Below are positions 214 to 11,295 of a stretch of DNA of 11,304 nt, piece after piece. The stretch comes from an uncultured Desulfovibrio sp. (GTDB taxonomy: Bacteria > Desulfobacterota > Desulfovibrionia > Desulfovibrionales > Desulfovibrionaceae), in contig UQJT01000059.1 in NCBI GenBank assembly GCA_900541395.1, positions 1 through 11,304 on the forward strand, in the 5' to 3' direction. Numbering within the stretch: position 1 is the stretch's first letter; each line of letters begins with the position of its first letter. The translations under genes were made by a program, and so were the position numbers. The notes below the pieces were generated by a model. It worked only from the letters and a program-made list of their open reading frames with translations. It made no database searches and was not told the DNA's origin.

Positions 214-1374
214 TCACAAGGCGGCCACAAACTCGCCGCTTTTGCCGCCCGCCTTGTACAGCAACCGCACGTCGCGGATAATCATATCCTTCTGCACGGC
301 CTTGGCCATGTCGTAGATGGTGGCCGCCGCCGTCTGGGCGGCGAACAACGCTTCCATCTCCACACCCGTTTTACCCGTGGTCCGTACTTCGGTTTCCAGA
401 ATCACCGCCGGAGGTTCGTCCTGAATAGTGAAACGCACGTCGGCGTAAGTAATAGACAACGGATGGCAGAGAGGGATCATCTCCCAGGTGCGCTTGGCCG
501 CCATAATGCCCGCTATTTTGGCCGTGGCCAGCACATCGCCTTTGGGCAAAGCGTCGCGCCGCAGCAAATCCAGGGTCTCGGCCCGCATTTCCACCACGGC
601 CCGGGCCCGGGCCACCCGGTCGGTCTCGACCTTGGTCCCTACGTCCACCATGCGCAACGAGCCGTCCGCCGCCAGATGGGAAAAAGCGGGAGCGCGTACC
701 GCTTCGAGCAAGACGTTCAGCACTTCCTCCGGACTCAGATCGGACGTATCGACGATAACCGCGTCCGACGCGGGCCGAAGCGGATCCACGACGCGATTGC
801 GGTCCTGCTCGTCGCGGGCTGCAATGGCCGCCAGCACGGTATCTTTATCCGCCGTCTCGCCTCGATCCGCCAGTTCGCGGCAGCGCCGCTCGGCCCGGAC
901 TTCGGGCCGGGCGTCCAGAAAAAACTTATACCGGGCCTCAGGAAACACCCGGGTGCCCATGTCTCGCCCCTCCGCCACCAGCGACCAACGGCGGCCCAGA
1001 CTCCGCTGCACGTTCTGGAGCGCCTCGCGCAACACGGGCAGACGGGCCACCAGCGAGGCCAAGCGCCCGGCTTTTTCGGTGCGGATTTCATCGCCCACGG
1101 GCTGACCGTTGCAGAACAGGCACAGGCTGTCCCTGTCCGTGGGGCAGGGTTCCAGACTGAAACTATATTCCGCGCAGCGACGCCGCAACTCCTCGTCGCT
1201 CATATCGGCCGCGGCGGCGCCCAGACGCAGGCCCAGTGTACGGTACATGGCGCCGGTGTCCAGATAGGGCACGCCCAGGGCGGCGGCCAGGCGGCGGGCC
1301 GTGGTGCTTTTGCCCACCCCGGCCGGGCCGTCCAGGGTAATAACGGACGGAACGTCCCGAATTTCGGGGCTCAT
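214..1374 (-). CDS. cmk-moaC: Fused cytidylate kinase and MoaC (cyclic pyranopterin monophosphate synthase)
   Basis: One uninterrupted 386-residue reading frame holds two cytosolic enzymes. Residues about 10-230 are cytidylate kinase (CMP/dCMP + ATP to CDP/dCDP). Visible motifs are the P-loop GPAGVGKST (16-24), the LDTGAMYR nucleotide-binding stretch (about 38-45), GRDMGT (about 136-141) and the RDEQDRNR lid motif (about 187-194). Residues about 232-386 are MoaC, which converts the GTP-derived intermediate made by MoaA to cyclic pyranopterin monophosphate in molybdenum/tungsten cofactor synthesis. Here LCHPL, the TGKTGVEMEAL stretch, YDMAKAVQKDM and the terminal GGKSG are intact. Each half is near the family's normal length (about 227 and 160 residues). 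The start at 1374 is chosen because it overlaps the hisC stop as ATGA and has GGGAGG six bases upstream; an in-frame ATG at 1404 would lie inside hisC. The MoaC half has no start of its own: its first Met (residue 242) lies inside the conserved MVDVG. Both activities are inferred from conserved residues. Confidence 0.93.
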   Translation of the reverse strand: MSPEIRDVPSVITLDGPAGVGKSTTARRLAAALGVPYLDTGAMYRTLGLRLGAAAADMSDEELRRRCAEYSFSLEPCPTDRDSLCLFCNGQPVGDEIRTEKAGRLASLVARLPVLREALQNVQRSLGRRWSLVAEGRDMGTRVFPEARYKFFLDARPEVRAERRCRELADRGETADKDTVLAAIAARDEQDRNRVVDPLRPASDAVIVDTSDLSPEEVLNVLLEAVRAPAFSHLAADGSLRMVDVGTKVETDRVARARAVVEMRAETLDLLRRDALPKGDVLATAKIAGIMAAKRTWEMIPLCHPLSITYADVRFTIQDEPPAVILETEVRTTGKTGVEMEALFAAQTAAATIYDMAKAVQKDMIIRDVRLLYKAGGKSGEFVAAL

Positions 1375-2498
1375 ACCCGGCCTCCCCGCAGAATATCCGC
1401 GCACTCGGCCAAAAACAGCCGGTTTTCTTCTTCCATGCCCACGCTGACCCGCAGCCAGTCAGGCAGATGGTACCCGCCCAACGCGCGCACGATGATGCCC
1501 CGCTCCAACAAGGTCTGGTGCAGCACACGAGCATCCGGCCCGCCCACGGGCGGCGCGAACATCAAAAAATTGGCGTGGCTGGGCAGCACCGTGCACCCCA
1601 ACGCCCGCAGGCCGTCGGACAGCACGGTTCGTCCTTCGGCCACCACGCGCCGGGTGATTTCGCGGAAAATATCGTCCTCCAGCGCGGCCACGGCCGCCTG
1701 TTCAGCCAACACATTCACCGAAAAGGGCAGACGTACCCGCCACATATAGTCGGCCAGACGCGGGGGAAGAATACCATAGCCCACGCGCAATCCGGCCAAA
1801 CCATACACTTTGGAAAAAGTGCGCAACAAGGCCACATTGGGCACTTCGTCCAGATGCTTCAAAAGCGAGTGCTCCTCACCCGCAAAATCGATGTAGGCCT
1901 CGTCCACCACCAACAGGCAGGCGGGGGGCAGGGCGCGGGCCACGCGAATCAGGTCGCGGACCGGAGCCAGACGCCCTGAGGGGTTGTCGGGCGAAGTGAC
2001 GAATACCAGGGTGGTATTGGCATCCACCCGTTCCAGCAGACTGTCGAAATCAAAGCTGAAATCCTCGGCCAGACGGGCGCGGCGCAGTTCCACCCCGGCC
2101 AGGCGGGCCTGAGTGACGTAAAGACCGAAACAGGGCCGGAAGGCCACGGCGTTGTGTACGCCGGGCACGGCCCGCACCCGGAACAGAAGATCAATGACCT
2201 CATCCGAGCCGTTACCCACGAAGACACGGGCCGGCTCAACCCCCAAGCGTCCGGCCAGCGCCGCCGTCAGCCGGGGATTGCCCGCCTGCGGATAGCGGTA
2301 AACGTACTCGACGTTGTCCTGCAGCACTGCCTGCACCACAGGCGACGCGCCCAGCGGGTTTTCGTTGCTGGCCATCTTGACGACGCGCTCAAGGCTGTAA
2401 CGCCGCTGAATCTCCTCAATGCTCAGGCCGGGCTCGTACGGCTCGAACGCCGCAACTTCCGGACGCACGTCGTCGGGAGAGGTAAAGGGCATGGACAT
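1371..2498 (-). CDS. hisC: Histidinol-phosphate aminotransferase
   Basis: This 375-residue fold-type I PLP aminotransferase converts imidazole-acetol phosphate and glutamate to histidinol phosphate in histidine synthesis. Motifs in order are SNENPLG (45-51), RYPQAG (about 68-73), NPSG (172-175), DEAYIDF (199-205), the Schiff-base lysine in TFSK (K230) followed by GLAGLRVGYG, and the substrate-carboxylate arginine in LRVSVG (about 350). The family is usually 350-375 residues. Aromatic or other amino-acid substrates are possible for HisC relatives. The frame is open back to 2597, but that extension runs through the upstream terminator hairpin and is rejected. AGGTGA at 2501-2506 best serves ATG 2498; a second ATG at 2492 is possible. 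The stop overlaps the cmk-moaC start by 4 bp. No convincing promoter is seen between the terminator and the start, so expression may depend on readthrough or a weak promoter. Confidence 0.95.
   Translation of the reverse strand: MSMPFTSPDDVRPEVAAFEPYEPGLSIEEIQRRYSLERVVKMASNENPLGASPVVQAVLQDNVEYVYRYPQAGNPRLTAALAGRLGVEPARVFVGNGSDEVIDLLFRVRAVPGVHNAVAFRPCFGLYVTQARLAGVELRRARLAEDFSFDFDSLLERVDANTTLVFVTSPDNPSGRLAPVRDLIRVARALPPACLLVVDEAYIDFAGEEHSLLKHLDEVPNVALLRTFSKVYGLAGLRVGYGILPPRLADYMWRVRLPFSVNVLAEQAAVAALEDDIFREITRRVVAEGRTVLSDGLRALGCTVLPSHANFLMFAPPVGGPDARVLHQTLLERGIIVRALGGYHLPDWLRVSVGMEEENRLFLAECADILRGGRV
1381..1386 (-). promoter_or_regulatory. Ribosome binding site of cmk-moaC, inside hisC
   Basis: GGGAGG on the minus strand lies six bases before the ATG at 1374, which overlaps the hisC TGA as ATGA. 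This favours the 1374 start over the upstream ATG at 1404 and suggests translational coupling to hisC. Confidence 0.75.
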
Positions 2499-2500
2499 GC

Positions 2501-2506
2501 TCACCT
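2501..2506 (-). promoter_or_regulatory. Ribosome binding site of hisC
   Basis: AGGTGA on the minus strand matches the 3' part of the AGGAGGTGA consensus. Measured from AGG, it sits 5 bases from the ATG at 2498 and 11 from the ATG at 2492, so 2498 is preferred. Confidence 0.55.
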
Positions 2507-2540
2507 GCCGGGTTGAAGGCGCTTCCCGCCCGCGGGAAGG

Positions 2541-3326: not shown

Positions 3327-3854
3327 ATGAAGATTAATGAGGAACTGGAGCGCCTGCTCGGCACGGAAGCTTTCCGGCAGCAGACGCGTACGGTGGGAAA
3401 CTCCGGCGGAGACGGTTTTGAAAGCCTGCTGACCCGACAACTGGCGCAGGGCGGACAGAGCGGGGCGGACAACCCCGACCTGTTGCGCGCGCTGGGCGAT
3501 CCTCTGCGCCTGGCCAACCTTGATGTCATGACTCTGGGCGGCCTGAACGCCGCTGAAAACGCGGCGGACTCAAACGGGGACGAGGCCCTGCTGGAATCCC
3601 TGACCGCCGGACTGGCCTCGGGTCTGGACGGTCTGGACAATTACGCCGCCGGGCTGGACGACCGTTCCTCCGACGGACTGCGCCGGGCCTGGAACGCCCT
3701 GGAAAACCTCGACGGCGCCCTCGCGGGTTTGCGTCAGGACCTGGGCAGGCTTTCCCAACCCAACGCGGAGCTGGAATCCATGCTGAATGAACTGGAAGTT
3801 CTCGCCACCACAGAGAAATTCAAGTTCAACCGCGGCGACTACCTGGTCGGCTGA
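3327..3854 (+). CDS. Conserved-looking hypothetical protein behind a sigma-54 promoter
   Basis: I do not recognise this 175-residue protein with confidence. It has no signal peptide, no membrane segment and no cysteine. It is acidic and rich in Leu, Asp, Asn and Gly. The first 30 residues look amphipathic (MKINEELERLL...), residues about 30-110 are low-complexity with FESLLTRQLAQ and several LA/GL repeats, and about 110-160 is likely helical. The last 20 residues (ELEVLATTEKFKFNRGDYL region) look like the conserved core; I have an unverified impression that similar F-N-R-G-D-Y tails end small proteins of other deltaproteobacteria. GGAGG precedes the ATG by four bases. Its own sigma-54 promoter and a following stem-loop make it a single-gene unit under activator control. 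A motility or surface role is possible because sigma-54 often drives such genes, but nothing in the protein proves it. Confidence 0.8.
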   Translation: MKINEELERLLGTEAFRQQTRTVGNSGGDGFESLLTRQLAQGGQSGADNPDLLRALGDPLRLANLDVMTLGGLNAAENAADSNGDEALLESLTAGLASGLDGLDNYAAGLDDRSSDGLRRAWNALENLDGALAGLRQDLGRLSQPNAELESMLNELEVLATTEKFKFNRGDYLVG

Positions 3855-4009: not shown

Positions 4010-4768
4010 ATGTCGTCCGCCGTCCGTCCGCCCTCCGTCCCTTTTCCCGCCGCCGTGCCGTCCCCGGAAACGGAGGCTGAAGGCAGCCGGGATCAACGCA
4101 CCGCCAAGGGAGAGGCCACCCGCGCCCGCTTGCTGACCGAGGCCATGCGGCTGTTTGCCGAACGCGGCTACGACGGGGCGAGCACCCGCGCCCTGGCCGA
4201 GGCGGCTTCCAGCAACGTGGCCCTCATCACTTTTCATTTCGGCAGCAAACGCGGCCTGTACGAGGCCACCATCAAAGCCGTGGAGCAGCGTCTGACCACG
4301 GTGGTCGCCCCCATACTCGACACCCTGCGCCGGGAACGGGCGAGTCGCAACGTCGGGCACGCCGAACTCATGACTCTCATCCGCGCCCTCATCCGGCGTT
4401 TGCTCGGTCAGTTGCTGCCCGTCACGCCCACCCCCGGCTTCTTTCAACTGCTTTCGCGCGAAATGCAGGAACAGGGACCGCTGTCCGAACGGCTGTGGAA
4501 GCTTTTCATGCCCGTACTGGCCACCGTGGAGGAAACCCTGGTGGCCGCCAGTTCCCCCGCCCTGCGCGACAAGGCCCGCATGGCCTCGTTTCTGCTGGTC
4601 GTGTCTCTGCTCGGCGTGGTGCGCGACTACGACGCCTTTCGCCGCCATCTGCCCGAGCCCCGGGATCAGGCCGCCGACGCCGCCGCTCTGGCGGATCTGC
4701 TGTGCGCCGGCCTGCCCGGCCAGTTTCCCGCCCCGGCGGCGCGGTTCCCGACAAGGAGTGCCTCATGA
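4010..4768 (+). CDS. TetR-family repressor, CecR-like
   Basis: A 252-residue regulator. Residues 1-30 are a Pro/Ala-rich tail, probably disordered. The helix-turn-helix domain spans about 34-80 (KGEATRARLLTEAMRLFAERGYDGASTRALAEAA, then the recognition region ending FHFGSKRGLY). The effector/dimer domain follows; its FFQLLSREMQEQGPLSERLWKLFMPVL stretch resembles the C-terminal domain of E. coli CecR (YbiH), which controls the ybhGFSR exporter genes. The same arrangement here (repressor, then fusion protein and permeases) supports the assignment. AGGAGA five bases before the ATG fixes the start. The stop overlaps the hlyD-type ATG by 4 bp. It probably represses its own operon through the upstream palindromes and responds to a substrate of the exporter. 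The inducer is unknown. Confidence 0.88.
   Translation: MSSAVRPPSVPFPAAVPSPETEAEGSRDQRTAKGEATRARLLTEAMRLFAERGYDGASTRALAEAASSNVALITFHFGSKRGLYEATIKAVEQRLTTVVAPILDTLRRERASRNVGHAELMTLIRALIRRLLGQLLPVTPTPGFFQLLSREMQEQGPLSERLWKLFMPVLATVEETLVAASSPALRDKARMASFLLVVSLLGVVRDYDAFRRHLPEPRDQAADAAALADLLCAGLPGQFPAPAARFPTRSAS
4753..4758 (+). promoter_or_regulatory. Ribosome binding site of the membrane fusion protein gene
   Basis: AAGGAG lies inside the end of the repressor gene, six bases before the ATG at 4765, which overlaps the repressor TGA as ATGA. It selects this start over the much longer open frame upstream. Confidence 0.75.
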
Positions 4769-5763
4769 AAAAAGTCATTCTGCCCGTCCTGGTGGGCATT
4801 GCCGGTCTGGCCCTGCTGCTGCTCGCCGTGGGCGGCGCGCTGGACGTTTCAAACAAACCGGTCTTTATTCAGGGAGAAATAGACGCCACCCGGGTGGACG
4901 TGTCGGCCAAAATTTCCGGACGCGTGGCTGAACAGGCGGTGCGCGACGGCGCTCAGGTCGCGACGGGCGAGCTCTTGCTGGTGCTGGACAGCCCCGAGCT
5001 TCAGGCCCGCGTGCGGCAAGCCGAGGCAAACCTGGCCGCCGCCAGGGCCCAGCTTGAAAAAGTGCGCAACGGCACGCGCGTGGAAGAGGTACGCCAGGCC
5101 GAAAACGCCCACGCCGAGGCTGTGGCCGCTCTCACCGTGGCCGAACAGACTTTTGCGCGCATCAAACGTCTGCACGACGCCAGGGCCATTTCCTCTCAAA
5201 ACTACGATGAGGCCAAAAGCCAGCTCGATATGGCCCGTGAACGCGAAAAACGGGCACGCGCGGCCATGGATATGGCCCATGCCGGAGCGCGGGCCGAGGA
5301 CGAGCAGGCCGTGGACGCCCAGGCTCGCCTGGCCGAAGCCAAACTGGCCGAAGTGGAGTCCATGCGGGCCGACGTGCAGTTGCGTTCGCCCATAAACGGC
5401 GAAGTGAACAAGGTGCTGGTGCGCCAGGGCGAACTGGTCAGCGCGGGCTATCCGCTGGTCACCCTGGTGGACCTGAACGACGTATGGGCCGTGGTGCAGT
5501 TGCGCGAGGAATACCTCACTCATATCCGCATGGGCGAAACCTTCAAAGCCCGCGTTCCCGCCCTGGGCGACAAGGAAGTGACCTTCCGCGTCACCTATAT
5601 CGCGCCTCTGGGCGATTTCGCCACCTGGCGGGCCACCAACGACTCGGGCTCCTTCGATCTCAAGACCTTCGAGATTCACGGACAGCCCGTGGAGTCCGTT
5701 CCCGGCCTGCGGCCCGGCATGAGCGTCATCTTCGATATCAAGGACAATATACCGGGGGCATGA
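4765..5763 (+). CDS. HlyD-family periplasmic membrane fusion protein
   Basis: A 332-residue adaptor linking an inner-membrane exporter to an outer-membrane channel. Residues 4-26 form the N-terminal membrane anchor. The two lipoyl half-motifs lie at about 43-77 (VDVSAKISGRVAEQAVRDGAQVATGELLLVLD) and 203-236 (VQLRSPINGEVNKVLVRQGELVSAGYPLVTLVDL). Between them, about 78-200, is a long Ala/Glu/Arg-rich coiled-coil hairpin with YbhG-like RNGTRVEEVRQAE. A beta-barrel domain follows and the tail holds FATWRATNDSGSFDLKTFE and LRPGMSVIFDI. Length matches E. coli YbhG/YhiI (about 330-355). It is coupled to the repressor upstream, and the first permease starts one base after its stop. The substrate is unknown; CecR/YbhG relatives are linked to antibiotic or small-cation tolerance, but that cannot be transferred safely. 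Confidence 0.92.
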   Translation: MKKVILPVLVGIAGLALLLLAVGGALDVSNKPVFIQGEIDATRVDVSAKISGRVAEQAVRDGAQVATGELLLVLDSPELQARVRQAEANLAAARAQLEKVRNGTRVEEVRQAENAHAEAVAALTVAEQTFARIKRLHDARAISSQNYDEAKSQLDMAREREKRARAAMDMAHAGARAEDEQAVDAQARLAEAKLAEVESMRADVQLRSPINGEVNKVLVRQGELVSAGYPLVTLVDLNDVWAVVQLREEYLTHIRMGETFKARVPALGDKEVTFRVTYIAPLGDFATWRATNDSGSFDLKTFEIHGQPVESVPGLRPGMSVIFDIKDNIPGA

Positions 5764-5764
5764 C

Positions 5765-6946
5765 ATGACGGGCGTTCTGGAGGCGGCGGCGCGGCAGCTC
5801 CGCTCCTGGCCCCGGAGCCTGGTTTTCTGGTGGCTCCTGGTCCTGGCCCCCGTGGGAGGCATGGGCGTGCTGTGGGCTCTGCTCGACACGGGCGCGCTGC
5901 ACAAGATGCCCGTGGCCCTGTGCGATCAGGACCACAGCGCCCTGTCCCGCCAGGTGGCCCGCTGGATCGACGCCACCCCCAGTATGCGCGTCACCCGCGT
6001 GGTGACCAGTCCGGACGAGGGCGAAGCTCTGCTGCGCTCCGGCAAAGTTTACGCCCTTATCCTGATCCCCCGCGATTTCGAGCGCGATGTCCTGCGCCGA
6101 CGCCCCGTACGGCCCATAGCCTTTTTGGAAGGACAGCATATGGTCGCGGCAGGGGTATTGAGCCGCGACCTTACCGAGCTGGGCCTGAGCCTGTGGCGCG
6201 AACTGGACACGGACCTGCGCGAGCGCATGGGCGTGCCCGCCGCCTCGGCATTGCGCCAGGCCTCCACTGTGGGACTGGACCTGCGCCCCATCGCCAACCC
6301 CGGCACCAACTACCGCCCCTTTCTGTTGCCCGGCGTGCTGGCCTCTCTGCTCCAACTCACCCTGAGCATCATGACCGTGGCCGCGCTGCACCGTCTGGCC
6401 CGCACCGACGGCCCCGTCCGGGGCGTATGGCGCGAAGTCGCGGGGACCCTGCTGCCCCCGGTCCTGTGGACCTGGATGCTGGGCTGCGGTCTGACCGGCC
6501 TACTCATACTCCACGGCGATCTGAGCCTGCGTGGGAATTTCGGCCTGCTGGTCGCGGCATGGCTGGTCTTTTCCCTGGCCTCCGCCGCCCTGGGCCTGCT
6601 CATTTTCGGCCTGACCGAAAACTTCATCCAGAGCCTTAGCGTGGTATCGGCCTTTTCCTCTCCGGCTTTCGCCTTCGCCGGACTGACCTTTCCCCTGCTC
6701 AGCATGCCGTTTTTCGGCCGCTTGTGGGCCATGCTGCTGCCCGTCACCCATCTGCTGAAAATCGTGGTGCAGGGCGGACAGATGGGGTCGCCTTTTTCGG
6801 CCCAGGCGATGTCGTTTCTGTCATTGGGTCTGCTCGTTCTGGTCGAGGTCGGATGTGGTCTGCCCCTGGCCGCCCTGCGCGTGCGCCGCGTCCGTCGACG
6901 CCCCGATTCGCGCGCGCCGGAGCCCCGGCAGGAGGTCCGGTCATGA
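5765..6946 (+). CDS. ABC-2-type transport permease (first of two)
   Basis: A 393-residue integral inner-membrane protein with the ABC-2 permease layout: one N-terminal membrane helix (about 19-40), a large periplasmic domain (about 45-183) and about six further membrane segments (roughly 184-207, 228-249, 258-283, 290-312, 318-336 and 350-371). The periplasmic domain starts with PVALCDQDHSALS and carries IPRDFERDVL (101-110) and NPGTNY (178-183), typical of YhhJ/YbhS-like permeases. The tail (372-393) is Arg/Pro-rich and cytoplasmic. The start lies one base past the fusion-protein stop with only a G-run (GGGGG) as ribosome binding site, so coupling is likely. It probably pairs with the next gene as a heterodimer. 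No Walker A/B cassette is fused to it or encoded next to it. Confidence 0.88.
   Translation: MTGVLEAAARQLRSWPRSLVFWWLLVLAPVGGMGVLWALLDTGALHKMPVALCDQDHSALSRQVARWIDATPSMRVTRVVTSPDEGEALLRSGKVYALILIPRDFERDVLRRRPVRPIAFLEGQHMVAAGVLSRDLTELGLSLWRELDTDLRERMGVPAASALRQASTVGLDLRPIANPGTNYRPFLLPGVLASLLQLTLSIMTVAALHRLARTDGPVRGVWREVAGTLLPPVLWTWMLGCGLTGLLILHGDLSLRGNFGLLVAAWLVFSLASAALGLLIFGLTENFIQSLSVVSAFSSPAFAFAGLTFPLLSMPFFGRLWAMLLPVTHLLKIVVQGGQMGSPFSAQAMSFLSLGLLVLVEVGCGLPLAALRVRRVRRRPDSRAPEPRQEVRS
6930..6935 (+). promoter_or_regulatory. Ribosome binding site of the second permease gene
   Basis: AGGAGG lies seven bases before the ATG at 6943, which overlaps the first permease's TGA as ATGA. The same frame is open back to 6724, but this site and protein alignment to the first permease place the start at 6943. 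Confidence 0.8.
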
Positions 6947-8118
6947 AGACCATATTCCGCGCTTTTGTTGATGAATGTCAGGCCCTGCTCCACAGCATCG
7001 CCGGTCTGACCGTGCTGGTCATGGGCGTCCTTTTTTATTCCGTGCTTTATCCCCAGCCCTACCTGCACCAGGCGCCGCAAAAGCTGCCTCTGCTGGTGGT
7101 GGACCGCGATCGCACCACCACCAGCAGAACCCTATTGCGCCTGCTCGACTCCACCGAAGGCGCGCGCGTGGCCTCCGTATACAGCGACGCGCCCTCGGCT
7201 CTGGCCGATCTGCGCGACGGCAAGGGACAGGCCGCGTTGATTATTCCCGACGATTTCGAGCGCAACGTGCTGCGCGGCTCGCCCAGCGTGCTGCCCATTT
7301 ACCTGGACGCGGGCTATCTGTTGCCTTACCGGGTCATCTACAAAGGTATCAAACTGGCGGCGGAAAACATGGGTGCGGGCGTGCGCGTGCAACAGTTTCA
7401 GGCCCGGGGCATGCCCGAAAAACCCGCCCTGGCCCTGCAACTGCGCGGGCAATTCGACGTGCGCACTCTGTACAACCCGGCGGGCAACTACGCGCTCAGC
7501 ACCATCCCCGCCGTATTCGTGCTCATTCTGCAACAGACCCTGCTCATCGGCAGCGCTATCCTGGCCGAACGCCTGTATCGTCCGGCCTCCCCCGACGCCA
7601 GCCCGGACAAAGACGCCTCCAGCGCCCGATACCTGTTCGGCCGCCTGCTGTTTTTGTGCTGCCTGTATGTGGTGTACGCCGTATATTATACATGGCTGCT
7701 GCCCGTGTTGTACGACCTGCCTCGGGCTCATTCCACCGGCGATGTGCTGCTTTTCCTGCTGCCTTTTTTCCTGGCCTGCGGGGCGGCGGGCACGGCCTTC
7801 GCCCGCCTGGTCGGCAGGCCGGAATACGTGCTGATGGCCGCCCTGCCCTGCTCTATGCCCTTCCTTTTTCTATCCGGCGTCGCCTGGCCCCCCGAGGCCA
7901 TGCCCGCCGCAATCCGTTGCCTGGCTCAGATTCTGCCCAGCACCCCCGCCATCAACGGCTACCTCTATCTTTCCCAGCGCGGCGCGACCCTGGCCGACGT
8001 GCTGCCCCTGTGGGGACAACTGTGGGGACTGGCGCTGTTTTTCTTCGGGCTGGCCTGGCTGCTGATCAAACTTCGCGCCGCCCAAGGTCCGCATCCGCGA
8101 CACAACGACCGTCCTTGA
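6943..8118 (+). CDS. ABC-2-type transport permease (second of two)
   Basis: A 391-residue inner-membrane protein paralogous to the preceding permease and collinear with it: IPDDFERNVLR falls at 101-111 and NPAGNY at 178-183, the same residue numbers as in the first. One membrane helix (about 19-37) precedes a periplasmic domain (about 45-185, opening LPLLVVDRDRTTTSR). Further segments lie at about 186-207, 231-256, 266-288, 296-315 and 355-376. An acidic loop at about 214-228 (SPDASPDKDASS) is not seen in the first permease. This is the last gene of the operon, followed by the palindromic terminator. With the HlyD protein it should form an export pump, but an ATPase must come from elsewhere or be absent. 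Confidence 0.88.
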   Translation: MKTIFRAFVDECQALLHSIAGLTVLVMGVLFYSVLYPQPYLHQAPQKLPLLVVDRDRTTTSRTLLRLLDSTEGARVASVYSDAPSALADLRDGKGQAALIIPDDFERNVLRGSPSVLPIYLDAGYLLPYRVIYKGIKLAAENMGAGVRVQQFQARGMPEKPALALQLRGQFDVRTLYNPAGNYALSTIPAVFVLILQQTLLIGSAILAERLYRPASPDASPDKDASSARYLFGRLLFLCCLYVVYAVYYTWLLPVLYDLPRAHSTGDVLLFLLPFFLACGAAGTAFARLVGRPEYVLMAALPCSMPFLFLSGVAWPPEAMPAAIRCLAQILPSTPAINGYLYLSQRGATLADVLPLWGQLWGLALFFFGLAWLLIKLRAAQGPHPRHNDRP

Positions 8119-8484: not shown

Positions 8485-10563
8485 TTATTCCCCGCCGTTC
8501 GCCTTCCCGTGCTCCGCAATTACCTTGTCCACCACCGGTTGAGGCGCTTCCTCGTAATGATCAAACTCCATGGTGAACACGCCCTGGCCGCCGGTCATGC
8601 TGCGCAGGTCCGGAGCGTAGCGCAACACTTCGCTCATGGGCACATGGGCCTTGATCTCGGTGATCCCGGCCTGGGAATCCGACCCCAACACCTTGCCGCG
8701 TCGCGAGGACAAATCGCCGATAACGTCGCCCATATAATCGTCGGGAATGGAAACCGTAACCAGAGCGACAGGCTCCAGCAGCACCACCTTGAGCGTTTCC
8801 ATAGCCTTTTTGAAAGCCAGCGAGCCCGCCACTTTGAAGGCCATTTCCGACGAATCCACGGTATGGTATGATCCGTCGTACACACGCACCTTGAAGTCCA
8901 CAACCGGATATCCGGCCAGATAACCGCGCGCGGCGGATTCCTGAATACCCTTGTCGATGGCCGGGATATACTGGCGGGGGATGACGCCGCCCACAATGCC
9001 GTCCTCATACACATAACCCGAGCCGCGCGGCAGACCTTCCATTTCAATCCAGCAATCGCCGAACTGCCCGCGCCCGCCGGACTGTTTCTTGTGGCGGCCC
9101 TGCACCTGGCATTTGCCCTTGACCGTTTCGCGGTAGGGCACCTTGGGCGTTTTGAGCAGAATATCCACCTTGGAACGACGCTTGGCCTTTTCCACGGCGA
9201 TTTCTATGTGGAGCTGGCCCATGCCGGACAGCAGGATATCGCCGCTTTCCTCGTCACGGTTCAGTTTCAGGGTGGCGTCCTCGTCCAGCAGTTTCTGAAC
9301 GGCGGCGTACACCTTATCCTCATCTCCCTTTTCCTTGGGGGCCAGGGCAAAGGTGATGAGCTGCGGCGGCAGGGCGGGCATGGGCAGGGCAAAGGGAGCC
9401 TTCTCGTCGCACAGGGTATCGCCGGTGCGGGTGGTCTTGAGCTTGGCCACTCCCACAATGGCGCCGGGGCCCAAGGGCTCTTTGCACGGCGTCTGCGTCT
9501 TGCCGGTGACGAAAAGCAGACTGCCCATACGCTCCGTTTCGCCCGAACGCATATTTTTGAGCGTGGCATCGGGGCTCAGCTCGCCCGAGAGCACGCGCAC
9601 CATGCTCAACTGCCCGGAAAACTGATCGCTGAGCGTTTTGAACACCACGCCGGCCACAGGCTGATCCGGGGCCGAGGGACGCTCCACGGCGTCGCCGTTC
9701 TCGTTTTCACCCAACCAGGCGGGGCGATCCAGCGGCGAGGCCAGCAGCTTGTCGATGTGGTTGAGCAGGCGGCGGCCCCCCTTGTTGGCCAGGGCCGAGC
9801 CCACCAGCACGGGCACGATGTCCCCGGCCAGCACGCCTTTGCGCAGGCCGAGATCGATTTCCTCGGGCGACAGAGCGCCCTCGTCCAGATATTTGTTCAT
9901 GAGGTCTTCATCGGACTCCGCGATGTTTTCCACCGCGGTGTCGCGCAGCAACGCGGCCTCGTCGGCCAGATCCTCCGGCACGGGCGCTTCCGTGACCTCG
10001 CCGTTTTCACCGAACATAAGAGCTTTGCCCGCAAAAACGTCCACCAGGCCGACAAAGGCATCCTTGTCCAGAATGGGCATATAGAAGACCACGGGCTTCA
10101 TGCCCAGGGTGGATGTCAGACCGCCCAACGCCATGTCGAAATTGGCGCGCTCGCGATCCATCTTATTGATGAATACGATGGCGGGCAGACCGGCAGCCCT
10201 GATATGGGACCATAATTTGCGGGTCTGGGGGCGCACGCCGTCCACGGCGTCCAGGGTCAACACCACGCTGTCCACCCCCTGAAGCAGATATTCCAAATCG
10301 CCGTTGAAATTGCTGTCGCCCGGAATATCCACCAGAAAATGACGGTTCCTGTTCCACAAAAACGTGGCGAACCCCGGCTGTATAGAACCGCGGCGCTTGA
10401 TTTCCTCAGGTTCATAGTCCAGAGAGGCGGTTCCCTCTTCAATGGCGCCCAGCCGGGTTACGACACCCGCCTGAAAGAGCAGCATTTCCGCCAGCGAAGT
10501 CTTGCCGCAGCCCCCCGTGCCGACCAGGGCATAGGTGCGTTGCGTTTCCAGAGCGTTGGACAT
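8485..10563 (-). CDS. fusA: Elongation factor G paralog (EF-G2-like translational GTPase)
   Basis: A 692-residue protein with the five-domain EF-G plan: GTPase domain about 1-275, domain II about 300-385, III about 395-475, IV about 476-600 and V about 601-680. The P-loop is GTGGCGKT (15-22) rather than the AHIDAGKT of housekeeping EF-G. Switch I reads KRRGSIQ, with Ser60 where Thr is usual. Switch II is DIPGDSNF (79-86), placing Asp83 at the position of the catalytic His of DTPGHVDF. NKMD (133-136) and GSALANKG (255-262) give guanine specificity. SGMGQLHIEI (domain III) and YHTVDSSEMAFK (domain IV tip) are conserved. It is therefore a paralog and may act in translocation, ribosome recycling or a stress condition; which one is unknown. 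GGGAGAGGAAT precedes the ATG at 10563. It stands alone, with no rpsL/rpsG/tuf neighbours. Confidence 0.9.
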   Translation of the reverse strand: MSNALETQRTYALVGTGGCGKTSLAEMLLFQAGVVTRLGAIEEGTASLDYEPEEIKRRGSIQPGFATFLWNRNRHFLVDIPGDSNFNGDLEYLLQGVDSVVLTLDAVDGVRPQTRKLWSHIRAAGLPAIVFINKMDRERANFDMALGGLTSTLGMKPVVFYMPILDKDAFVGLVDVFAGKALMFGENGEVTEAPVPEDLADEAALLRDTAVENIAESDEDLMNKYLDEGALSPEEIDLGLRKGVLAGDIVPVLVGSALANKGGRRLLNHIDKLLASPLDRPAWLGENENGDAVERPSAPDQPVAGVVFKTLSDQFSGQLSMVRVLSGELSPDATLKNMRSGETERMGSLLFVTGKTQTPCKEPLGPGAIVGVAKLKTTRTGDTLCDEKAPFALPMPALPPQLITFALAPKEKGDEDKVYAAVQKLLDEDATLKLNRDEESGDILLSGMGQLHIEIAVEKAKRRSKVDILLKTPKVPYRETVKGKCQVQGRHKKQSGGRGQFGDCWIEMEGLPRGSGYVYEDGIVGGVIPRQYIPAIDKGIQESAARGYLAGYPVVDFKVRVYDGSYHTVDSSEMAFKVAGSLAFKKAMETLKVVLLEPVALVTVSIPDDYMGDVIGDLSSRRGKVLGSDSQAGITEIKAHVPMSEVLRYAPDLRSMTGGQGVFTMEFDHYEEAPQPVVDKVIAEHGKANGGE

Positions 10564-10755: not shown

Positions 10756-11295
10756 ATGCCGCCGTCCCTGTTCCTGCTTTTGGGCCTTGCCGCTCTACTG
10801 CTGATAGCCGTGCTCCGTTTCGTCCGCCCCCGTTCGTCCTGGTCGGCCTTTCACGCCGGGGCGCTGGTCCGCGCCGAACGCACCCGCCGCGAAACCGAAC
10901 GGGCCACCGAGGCCATTTCGGGCGCTGAGGCCCTTCTTCCCCTGCGCGCGCTGCTGCGCGAACCGATCGTCCCTTCCGGCGTCGAACTGCATGAACTGGA
11001 CGCGGGCGCGGAAGAGGTACGCGTACTGGTGACTTCTCCACAAGCTTCGCTTATGCTGCGCCTCACCCATTCCCCCTATCGCCGGGCGGACCATTTCCCC
11101 GCACCCCCGGCGGGACTGTGGCTGTTGTCCATACGTGACGCGGTCGATGCCGCGACTCGACCGGAGGCATCATCCCCGGATGCCGAATATATGGAAGAAA
11201 CGTTCGACGACCTGGCCGCCTGCGCGGCGCGCCTGCAAACCCTTGTCGCCGATCCGTCATCGGCGCGACGGAGCCTGCATGCCCCCTCGGATTGA
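10756..11295 (+). CDS. Membrane-anchored hypothetical protein
   Basis: I do not recognise this 179-residue protein. Residues about 3-22 (PSLFLLLGLAALLLIAVLRF) form one N-terminal membrane helix followed by positive charges (RPR), which suggests a signal anchor; the positive side after the helix favours a cytoplasmic body. A charged helical stretch (about 33-60, ARAERTRRETERATEAI region) follows, then a mixed alpha/beta body to about 165 and a short polar tail. No cysteines, no catalytic motif and no lipobox are seen. GAGGAAA precedes the ATG by about four bases. It is divergent from the EF-G-like gene and complete within the window, stopping nine bases before its end, so any operon partner lies outside. 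Confidence 0.75.
   Translation: MPPSLFLLLGLAALLLIAVLRFVRPRSSWSAFHAGALVRAERTRRETERATEAISGAEALLPLRALLREPIVPSGVELHELDAGAEEVRVLVTSPQASLMLRLTHSPYRRADHFPAPPAGLWLLSIRDAVDAATRPEASSPDAEYMEETFDDLAACAARLQTLVADPSSARRSLHAPSD

Follow-up and report, generated by a model that had tools for sequence, protein, structure and literature searches.

Fusions of cytidylate kinase (Cmk) and of MoaC, an enzyme of molybdenum cofactor (Moco) synthesis, have been described with several partners. Cmk is joined to an unrelated housekeeping enzyme in PanC-Cmk (PRK13477), AroA-Cmk (PRK11860) and Cmk-Der (PRK09518). MoaC is joined to Moco-related partners in MoaC/MoaB (PRK03604), MoaC-MOSC (PRK14499) and MoaC/MobA (PRK14500), and archaeal MoaC-MoaC, MoaC-MoaE and MoaC-MoaB fusions have been reported (PMC11237513). 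Here we analyzed a stretch of 11,304 nucleotides from an uncultured Desulfovibrio sp. (contig UQJT01000059.1, hereafter the window), in which one gene encodes Cmk fused to MoaC. It resembles the first group in carrying Cmk with an unrelated housekeeping enzyme, but the partner is different. It resembles the second in carrying MoaC with another domain, but Cmk is not Moco-related. The window protein scored far below the cut-offs of all these models (score/cut-off: PRK13477 185.8/524, PRK11860 163.9/943, PRK09518 146.6/953, PRK03604 179.9/285, PRK14499 179.1/457, PRK14500 132.1/606).

Compared with the (d)CMP kinase Cmk (TIGR00017; E. coli structures 1kdo and 2cmk), the fusion shares the full domain, the catalytic residues and the fold, but bears a second enzyme at its C-terminus. 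Similarly, it shares the full domain, intact catalytic residues and fold of MoaC (TIGR00581; E. coli 1ekr and 4pyd), but has a kinase at its N-terminus, and moaA lies on a separate contig in five fusion genomes. No model for a Cmk-MoaC fusion was among the 15 NCBIfam families matched by the window protein. We found no description of such a fusion in the open-licence literature, and the available portions of PMC2248599, PMC10248530 and PMC11237513 do not report one. A preliminary description of this DNA did not know the architecture as an established one. This agrees with the open-licence papers, but automatic annotation by JGI already names two homologues (P0041, P0045) 'cytidylate kinase/molybdenum cofactor biosynthesis protein MoaC'.

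The Cmk-MoaC fusion gene and its distribution

The gene and its two domains are located in the window as follows.

214..1374, minus strand: gene for the Cmk-MoaC fusion, 386 aa, coding from the ATG at 1374 down to base 217, with the stop codon at 214-216, identified from the open reading frame (ORF), Pfam and NCBIfam
694..1341, minus strand: cytidylate kinase domain, residues 12-227, with the P-loop and the GRDMGT/RDxxDRxR motifs intact
214..690, minus strand: MoaC domain, residues 229-386 (242-377 in Pfam), with the catalytic residues present

In a Pfam scan of the fusion protein, Cytidylate_kin (PF02224) matched residues 12-227 with 204.8 bits (cut-off 26; profile positions 1-210 of 211) and MoaC (PF01967) matched residues 242-377 with 178.3 bits (cut-off 27; profile positions 1-136 of 136). 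NCBIfam gave 184.6 bits for cmk TIGR00017 (cut-off 135.55) and 187.3 bits for moaC TIGR00581 (cut-off 141.5). The single uninterrupted frame with two full-length domains, proposed in the preliminary description, was confirmed by both databases, and every motif named there was found in the translation. The gene lies on the minus strand; reading 214-1374 on the plus strand does not yield it.

Cmk extends to about residue 227 and the alignment to E. coli MoaC starts at residue 231, leaving almost no linker. A stop or frameshift in the linker had been named as a sign of an assembly error, and neither was found at the junction. The identical 386-aa protein (P0002) is present on 208 contigs, together with many near-identical ones, and all 120 homologues listed (the best 120 of 6727) carry both Pfam domains. 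The recurrence of the ORF and the occurrence of fusions in six separate genome assemblies leave a negligible chance of an assembly or frameshift artefact. It is a true two-domain fusion in Desulfovibrionaceae. An independent internal start for MoaC was also rejected: ahead of the MoaC sequence, the codons between 219 and 241 include neither ATG nor GTG but just two TTGs, at 222 and 240, and ATG 242 lies within the MoaC domain. Inspection by eye revealed no clear ribosome-binding site for a separate MoaC start.

Copy number was judged in the genomes of relatives. Three of the 80 genome-contig loci kept had the fusion: a Desulfovibrionaceae metagenome-assembled genome (MAG; 84%), Candidatus Mailhella merdavium (72%) and Candidatus Bilophila faecipullorum (62%). 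The preliminary description had proposed to survey Desulfovibrionales for this architecture and to look for separate cmk and moaC genes. We searched a profile of 39 fusions (alignment A3: the window, 36 of the 120 listed homologues and two loci) over 348 genomes from the order of G001, the closest relative for which there is a genome; this order is Desulfovibrionales by inference. Up to five candidates were scored per genome. Six genomes had the fusion (G001, G002, G003, G077, G240 and G337; 597-688 bits) and the next match reached 356 bits. Each of the six had a single profile match at E<=1e-30 and one MoaC over the family cut-off; second PF02224 matches in G001-G003 were short and weak (21-30 bits). 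In the fusion genomes examined, no Cmk or MoaC other than the fused one was detected. In an even sample of 395 genomes across the phylum, the one match at E<=1e-115 was G001 itself. Systematic searching was confined to the phylum, and the homologues were the best 120 of 6727 and the best 120 of 5683. We also observed a Mailhella-type fusion (P0199) in which the MoaC part gives way after about 30 residues to unrelated hydrophobic sequence.

Conservation of the active sites

Residues K22, R45, R137, D138, R164, R187, D191 and R194 of Cmk (P-loop and phosphate/CMP-binding) were invariant in all 39 aligned fusions; the choice of these eight positions draws partly on general knowledge. So were K51, H77, E112, E114, D128 and K131 of MoaC (E. 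coli numbering, mapped from an alignment with E. coli MoaC). According to PDB titles, K51 and D128 are studied variants. H77, E112, E114 and K131 are residues that we take, partly from general knowledge, to be catalytic. The AlphaFold 2 (AF2) monomer model of the fusion had a predicted local distance difference test score (pLDDT) of 89.9 and a predicted template modelling score (pTM) of 0.63, which is modest, so that the mutual placement of the two domains is not fixed by the model. It matched E. coli MoaC chains with TMt 0.92-0.95 at 1.2-1.8 Å, and solved CMP kinases were also matched. MoaA was over its cut-off (TIGR02666) in five of the six fusion genomes, on a contig other than that of the fusion. 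Judged from the intact active sites, both halves are probably catalytically functional.

A dead MoaC domain in the sister lineage

The most interesting part of the finding is a degenerate MoaC tail (pseudo-MoaC) on the Cmk of a sister lineage. It was seen in 12 genomes, with the same hisC-cmk gene pair and the same domain order as the fusion. The Cmk is related to that of the fusion, but the MoaC part is shortened to about 110 aa, its catalytic residues are lost and a separate MoaC/MoaB is present. In the 46 rows of alignment A1 (43 of 80 new homologues plus three loci), K131 and E114 were found in none, D128 and E112 in two each and K51 in three. The MoaC fold was nevertheless retained in the predicted structure, and the proteins were 329-355 aa long in these 46 rows. 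A hidden Markov model (HMM) of the pseudo-domain recognized it in 69 of the 80 new homologues, although this model was built from A1 and was hence partly tested on its own members. In the pseudo-MoaC genomes, moaC is fused to a MoaB-type domain and adjoins moaA (L155-L164, L188-L193). PRK03604 was over its cut-off in all four of these MoaC/MoaB proteins scanned, and their second domain is PF00994.

We calculated the ratio of nonsynonymous to synonymous substitution rates (dN/dS) by the pairwise Nei-Gojobori method in 11 of the 12 pseudo-MoaC genomes; G250 was omitted, its domain being cut by a contig end. Results are given for the 25 closest of the 55 pairs. For the pseudo-domain, dN/dS was 0.42, 0.26 and 0.20 in the three pairs that were closest; for Cmk in these pairs it was 0.07, 0.10 and 0.09. 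Neutral evolution was simulated from the real sequences under three mutation settings (200 runs; five pairs of our choice). For four pairs, none of the 200 runs gave a pN as low as that of the real sequences; for the closest pair, 4, 9 and 5 of 200 runs did so. The pseudo-MoaC domain is under purifying selection, though relaxed.

Within the pseudo-domain, helix α3 was the best kept element (column entropy 1.62 bits), followed by α2 (2.02) and β1 (2.10); the value for Cmk was 0.55. In MoaC2 of M. tuberculosis, the dimer interface is built from helices α3 and α2, the LIPLCHQ loop and two other residues, and the common assembly of MoaC structures is a hexamer, according to the portions of PMC3602415 available.

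Genomic context

The gene upstream of the fusion in the window is hisC.

1371..2510, minus strand: hisC-type aminotransferase (class I/II), an ORF whose TGA overlaps the cmk ATG

The hisC stop and the cmk start share the four bases ATGA, and a GGGGAGG stretch precedes the start codon of the fusion gene. Because of this overlap, the fusion protein is probably co-translated with hisC by translational coupling. In 39 of 40 relatives examined, hisC is the upstream neighbor of cmk on the same strand; the two genes overlap, lie up to 299 bases apart or share one frame. The sole locus without hisC had just 291 bases of upstream sequence.

Elsewhere in the window, a divergent EF-G-like protein of 692 aa at 8485-10563 (minus strand) has EF-G domains and an unusual P-loop, GTGGCGKTS; it is probably a second EF-G paralogue. 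A TetR regulator, an HlyD-type adaptor and two ABC-2 permeases follow one another at 4010-8118 (plus strand), and no ABC ATPase was found with this row among the window ORFs scanned. Two further plus-strand ORFs, at 3327-3854 (175 aa) and 10756-11295 (179 aa), had no Pfam match at E 0.001.

Evolutionary history

In five relatives, HisC and Cmk share one ORF of 619-639 codons, uninterrupted by any stop codon, and the MoaC tail is absent (L140/G338, L141/G336, L146/G335, L150/G333 and L151/G334). P0194 has the HisC and Cmk domain pair too. A separate moaC adjoins moaA in the four genomes of this branch where both were found. Five other relatives (G072-G076) had neither MoaC nor MoaA over the cut-off. 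This is an apparent loss of molybdenum cofactor synthesis; some of the assemblies concerned are small, possibly with parts missing.

The RpoB tree contained 23 genomes, four of them outgroup; G077 and G333 (fragments) were left out, and there was no RpoB for G074, G130, G242, G248 and G251. All 19 ingroup genomes (five fusion, eight pseudo-MoaC plus G256, three HisC-Cmk and two MoaC-less) formed one clade (100/100), within which the pseudo-MoaC genomes plus G256 were also a clade (100/100). In the Cmk tree, 28 rows were grouped at 96/76, the pseudo-MoaC set at 97/98 and the window with G001 at 100/99. In the MoaC tree, seven fused MoaCs and 15 MoaC/MoaB formed one clade (100/99), apart from 20 separate MoaCs sampled in the order. 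Thus a single origin of the fusion at the base of the clade is likely from these trees, but not proven because of the few outgroup genomes and the weak Cmk node. The MoaC of MoaC/MoaB might have been copied from the fusion or might be older than it. A clade of all fusion MoaCs had a p-AU (approximately unbiased test) of 0.22, and of 0.49 in a repeat without P0065, P0068 and G337, which favors neither alternative. In the best tree of the repeat, MoaC/MoaB was nested with Mailhella-type fusions (support 61/0).

In the simplest history, moaC would have been fused a single time to cmk, within the old hisC-cmk pair, at the base of the clade, whose members are Desulfovibrionaceae with an apparent gut association. 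The fusion would have been retained in Bilophila, Mailhella, the lineage of the window and G337. In a second branch, the MoaC half would have become catalytically dead with its fold retained. A third branch (G333-G336, G338) would have lost the MoaC tail and joined Cmk to HisC on the opposite side, with a separate moaC. In G072-G076, MoaC would have been lost along with MoaA.

Why is the fusion kept?

To our knowledge, Cmk and MoaC share no metabolic step, and E. coli Cmk works alone. The explanation that we hold to be just on the probable side is a bifunctional housekeeping protein whose halves act independently, MoaC serving as an assembly core for Cmk and later, in one daughter lineage, as its structural support. 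The N-terminal half would convert CMP and ATP to CDP and ADP, and the C-terminal half 3',8-cH2GTP to cyclic pyranopterin monophosphate. The fusion would give co-expression of the two activities; co-expression alone, as suggested in the preliminary description, stands as the minimal reading. As MoaC forms dimers and hexamers, in which subunits share the active site, the fusion would also gather Cmk on a MoaC core. In the sister lineage, the second MoaC (fused to the MoaB-type domain, beside moaA) would have taken over the chemistry, and the half borne by Cmk would have lost its active site and mostly kept its fold, as expected of a structural support. We infer the catalysis, the oligomer and the scaffold role. 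The pseudo-MoaC domain is the sole evidence on why the fusion is kept; it fits a scaffold but falls short of proof. A bolder version is doubtful: that the MoaC dimer or hexamer was recruited as the Cmk assembly core in gut Desulfovibrionaceae, that Cmk came to depend on the pseudoenzyme scaffold, and that dimeric HisC plays the same role in the HisC-Cmk branch.

Several observations weigh against this explanation. The pTM of the model informs little on how the two domains sit. No MoaA was over the TIGR02666 cut-off in G001 (best 71 bits), which leaves its MoaC with no visible supplier of substrate; since G001 is a 2.2-Mb MAG of unstated completeness, this may be an assembly gap, or its fused MoaC may be an orphan. 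The LIPLCH loop, part of the MoaC2 dimer interface, is lost in the pseudo-domain, and the conservation of α2 and α3 may reflect the monomer core instead. The missing MoaA and the lost loop slightly lowered our estimate for the scaffold. The pseudo-domain also evolves faster than Cmk, and in farther pairs its dN/dS is 0.37-0.84 at high dS, which indicates relaxed constraint. Eleven of the 80 proteins had no recognizable pseudo-domain: two have apparent frameshifts (P0153, P0156), three are plain-length Cmks (P0193, P0196, P0197) and the rest are partial, chimeric or other. P0153 and P0156 are near relatives of the G253/G254 Cmk, and their apparently frameshifted tails imply that the pseudo-MoaC tail can be lost. 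Nor is a scaffold a general requirement, given that a MoaC tail is absent from both the HisC-Cmk and the MoaC-less genomes.

The strongest rival of the scaffold is a frozen accident, a reading that we regard as quite credible, if short of probable. Loss of a stop codon would have joined adjacent genes in the hisC-cmk operon, giving two enzymes merely strung together, which gain nothing but a shared promoter and ribosome-binding site; pseudo-MoaC would be a slowly decaying remnant, kept only so as not to misfold. The near absence of a linker in the window agrees with this, as does the spacing between the DTS motif of Cmk and the MVDV motif of MoaC, which varies from 33 to 76 residues in 38 fusions. 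Gene joining seems easy at this locus, given the old, tight hisC-cmk pair (39 of 40 loci) and the five genomes with hisC and cmk in one frame, and the tail is gone in two branches and in some close relatives. The available portions of PMC11237513 suggest that archaeal MoaC fusions stem from frameshifts in syntenic blocks. However, the near-constant length of the pseudo-domain proteins, the retained predicted fold, the purifying selection and the persistence of the domain in 69 of 80 related proteins argue against mere decay.

The preliminary description had also raised metabolic coupling, in which CTP supply is tied to the synthesis of molybdopterin cytosine dinucleotide (MCD). MCD synthesis consumes CTP, and the two best sub-threshold MocA-like matches were in fusion genomes (G240 and G003, 110 bits). 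Nevertheless, non-fusion genomes followed at 104 bits, three other fusion genomes scored weakly (G002 60, G077 42 and G001 32 bits), and MocA was over the TIGR03310 cut-off in none of 34 genomes (fusion, pseudo-MoaC, HisC-Cmk, MoaC-less and outgroup), a strict cut-off exceeded in just one of 14 control genomes, so that absence of MocA is not proven. Moreover, the same protein has lost MoaC catalysis in relatives, MoaC acts several steps ahead of the CTP-dependent step, and CMP kinase belongs to salvage, with CTP synthase making CTP de novo. The proposed link was thus unsupported, and we consider it very improbable.

Implications

These results carry two warnings for annotation. In the fusion genomes, the only MoaC is concealed under the gene name cytidylate kinase; in the sister lineage, roughly one third of the chain that bears this name is left unannotated. 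The clade offers a natural case of the evolution of a fusion between unrelated enzymes: an apparently single origin, a bifunctional protein, a pseudoenzyme, tail loss and joining at the opposite end are all seen in close relatives. The pseudo-MoaC domain makes it testable whether metabolically senseless fusions might be fixed through the oligomer scaffold of the partner.
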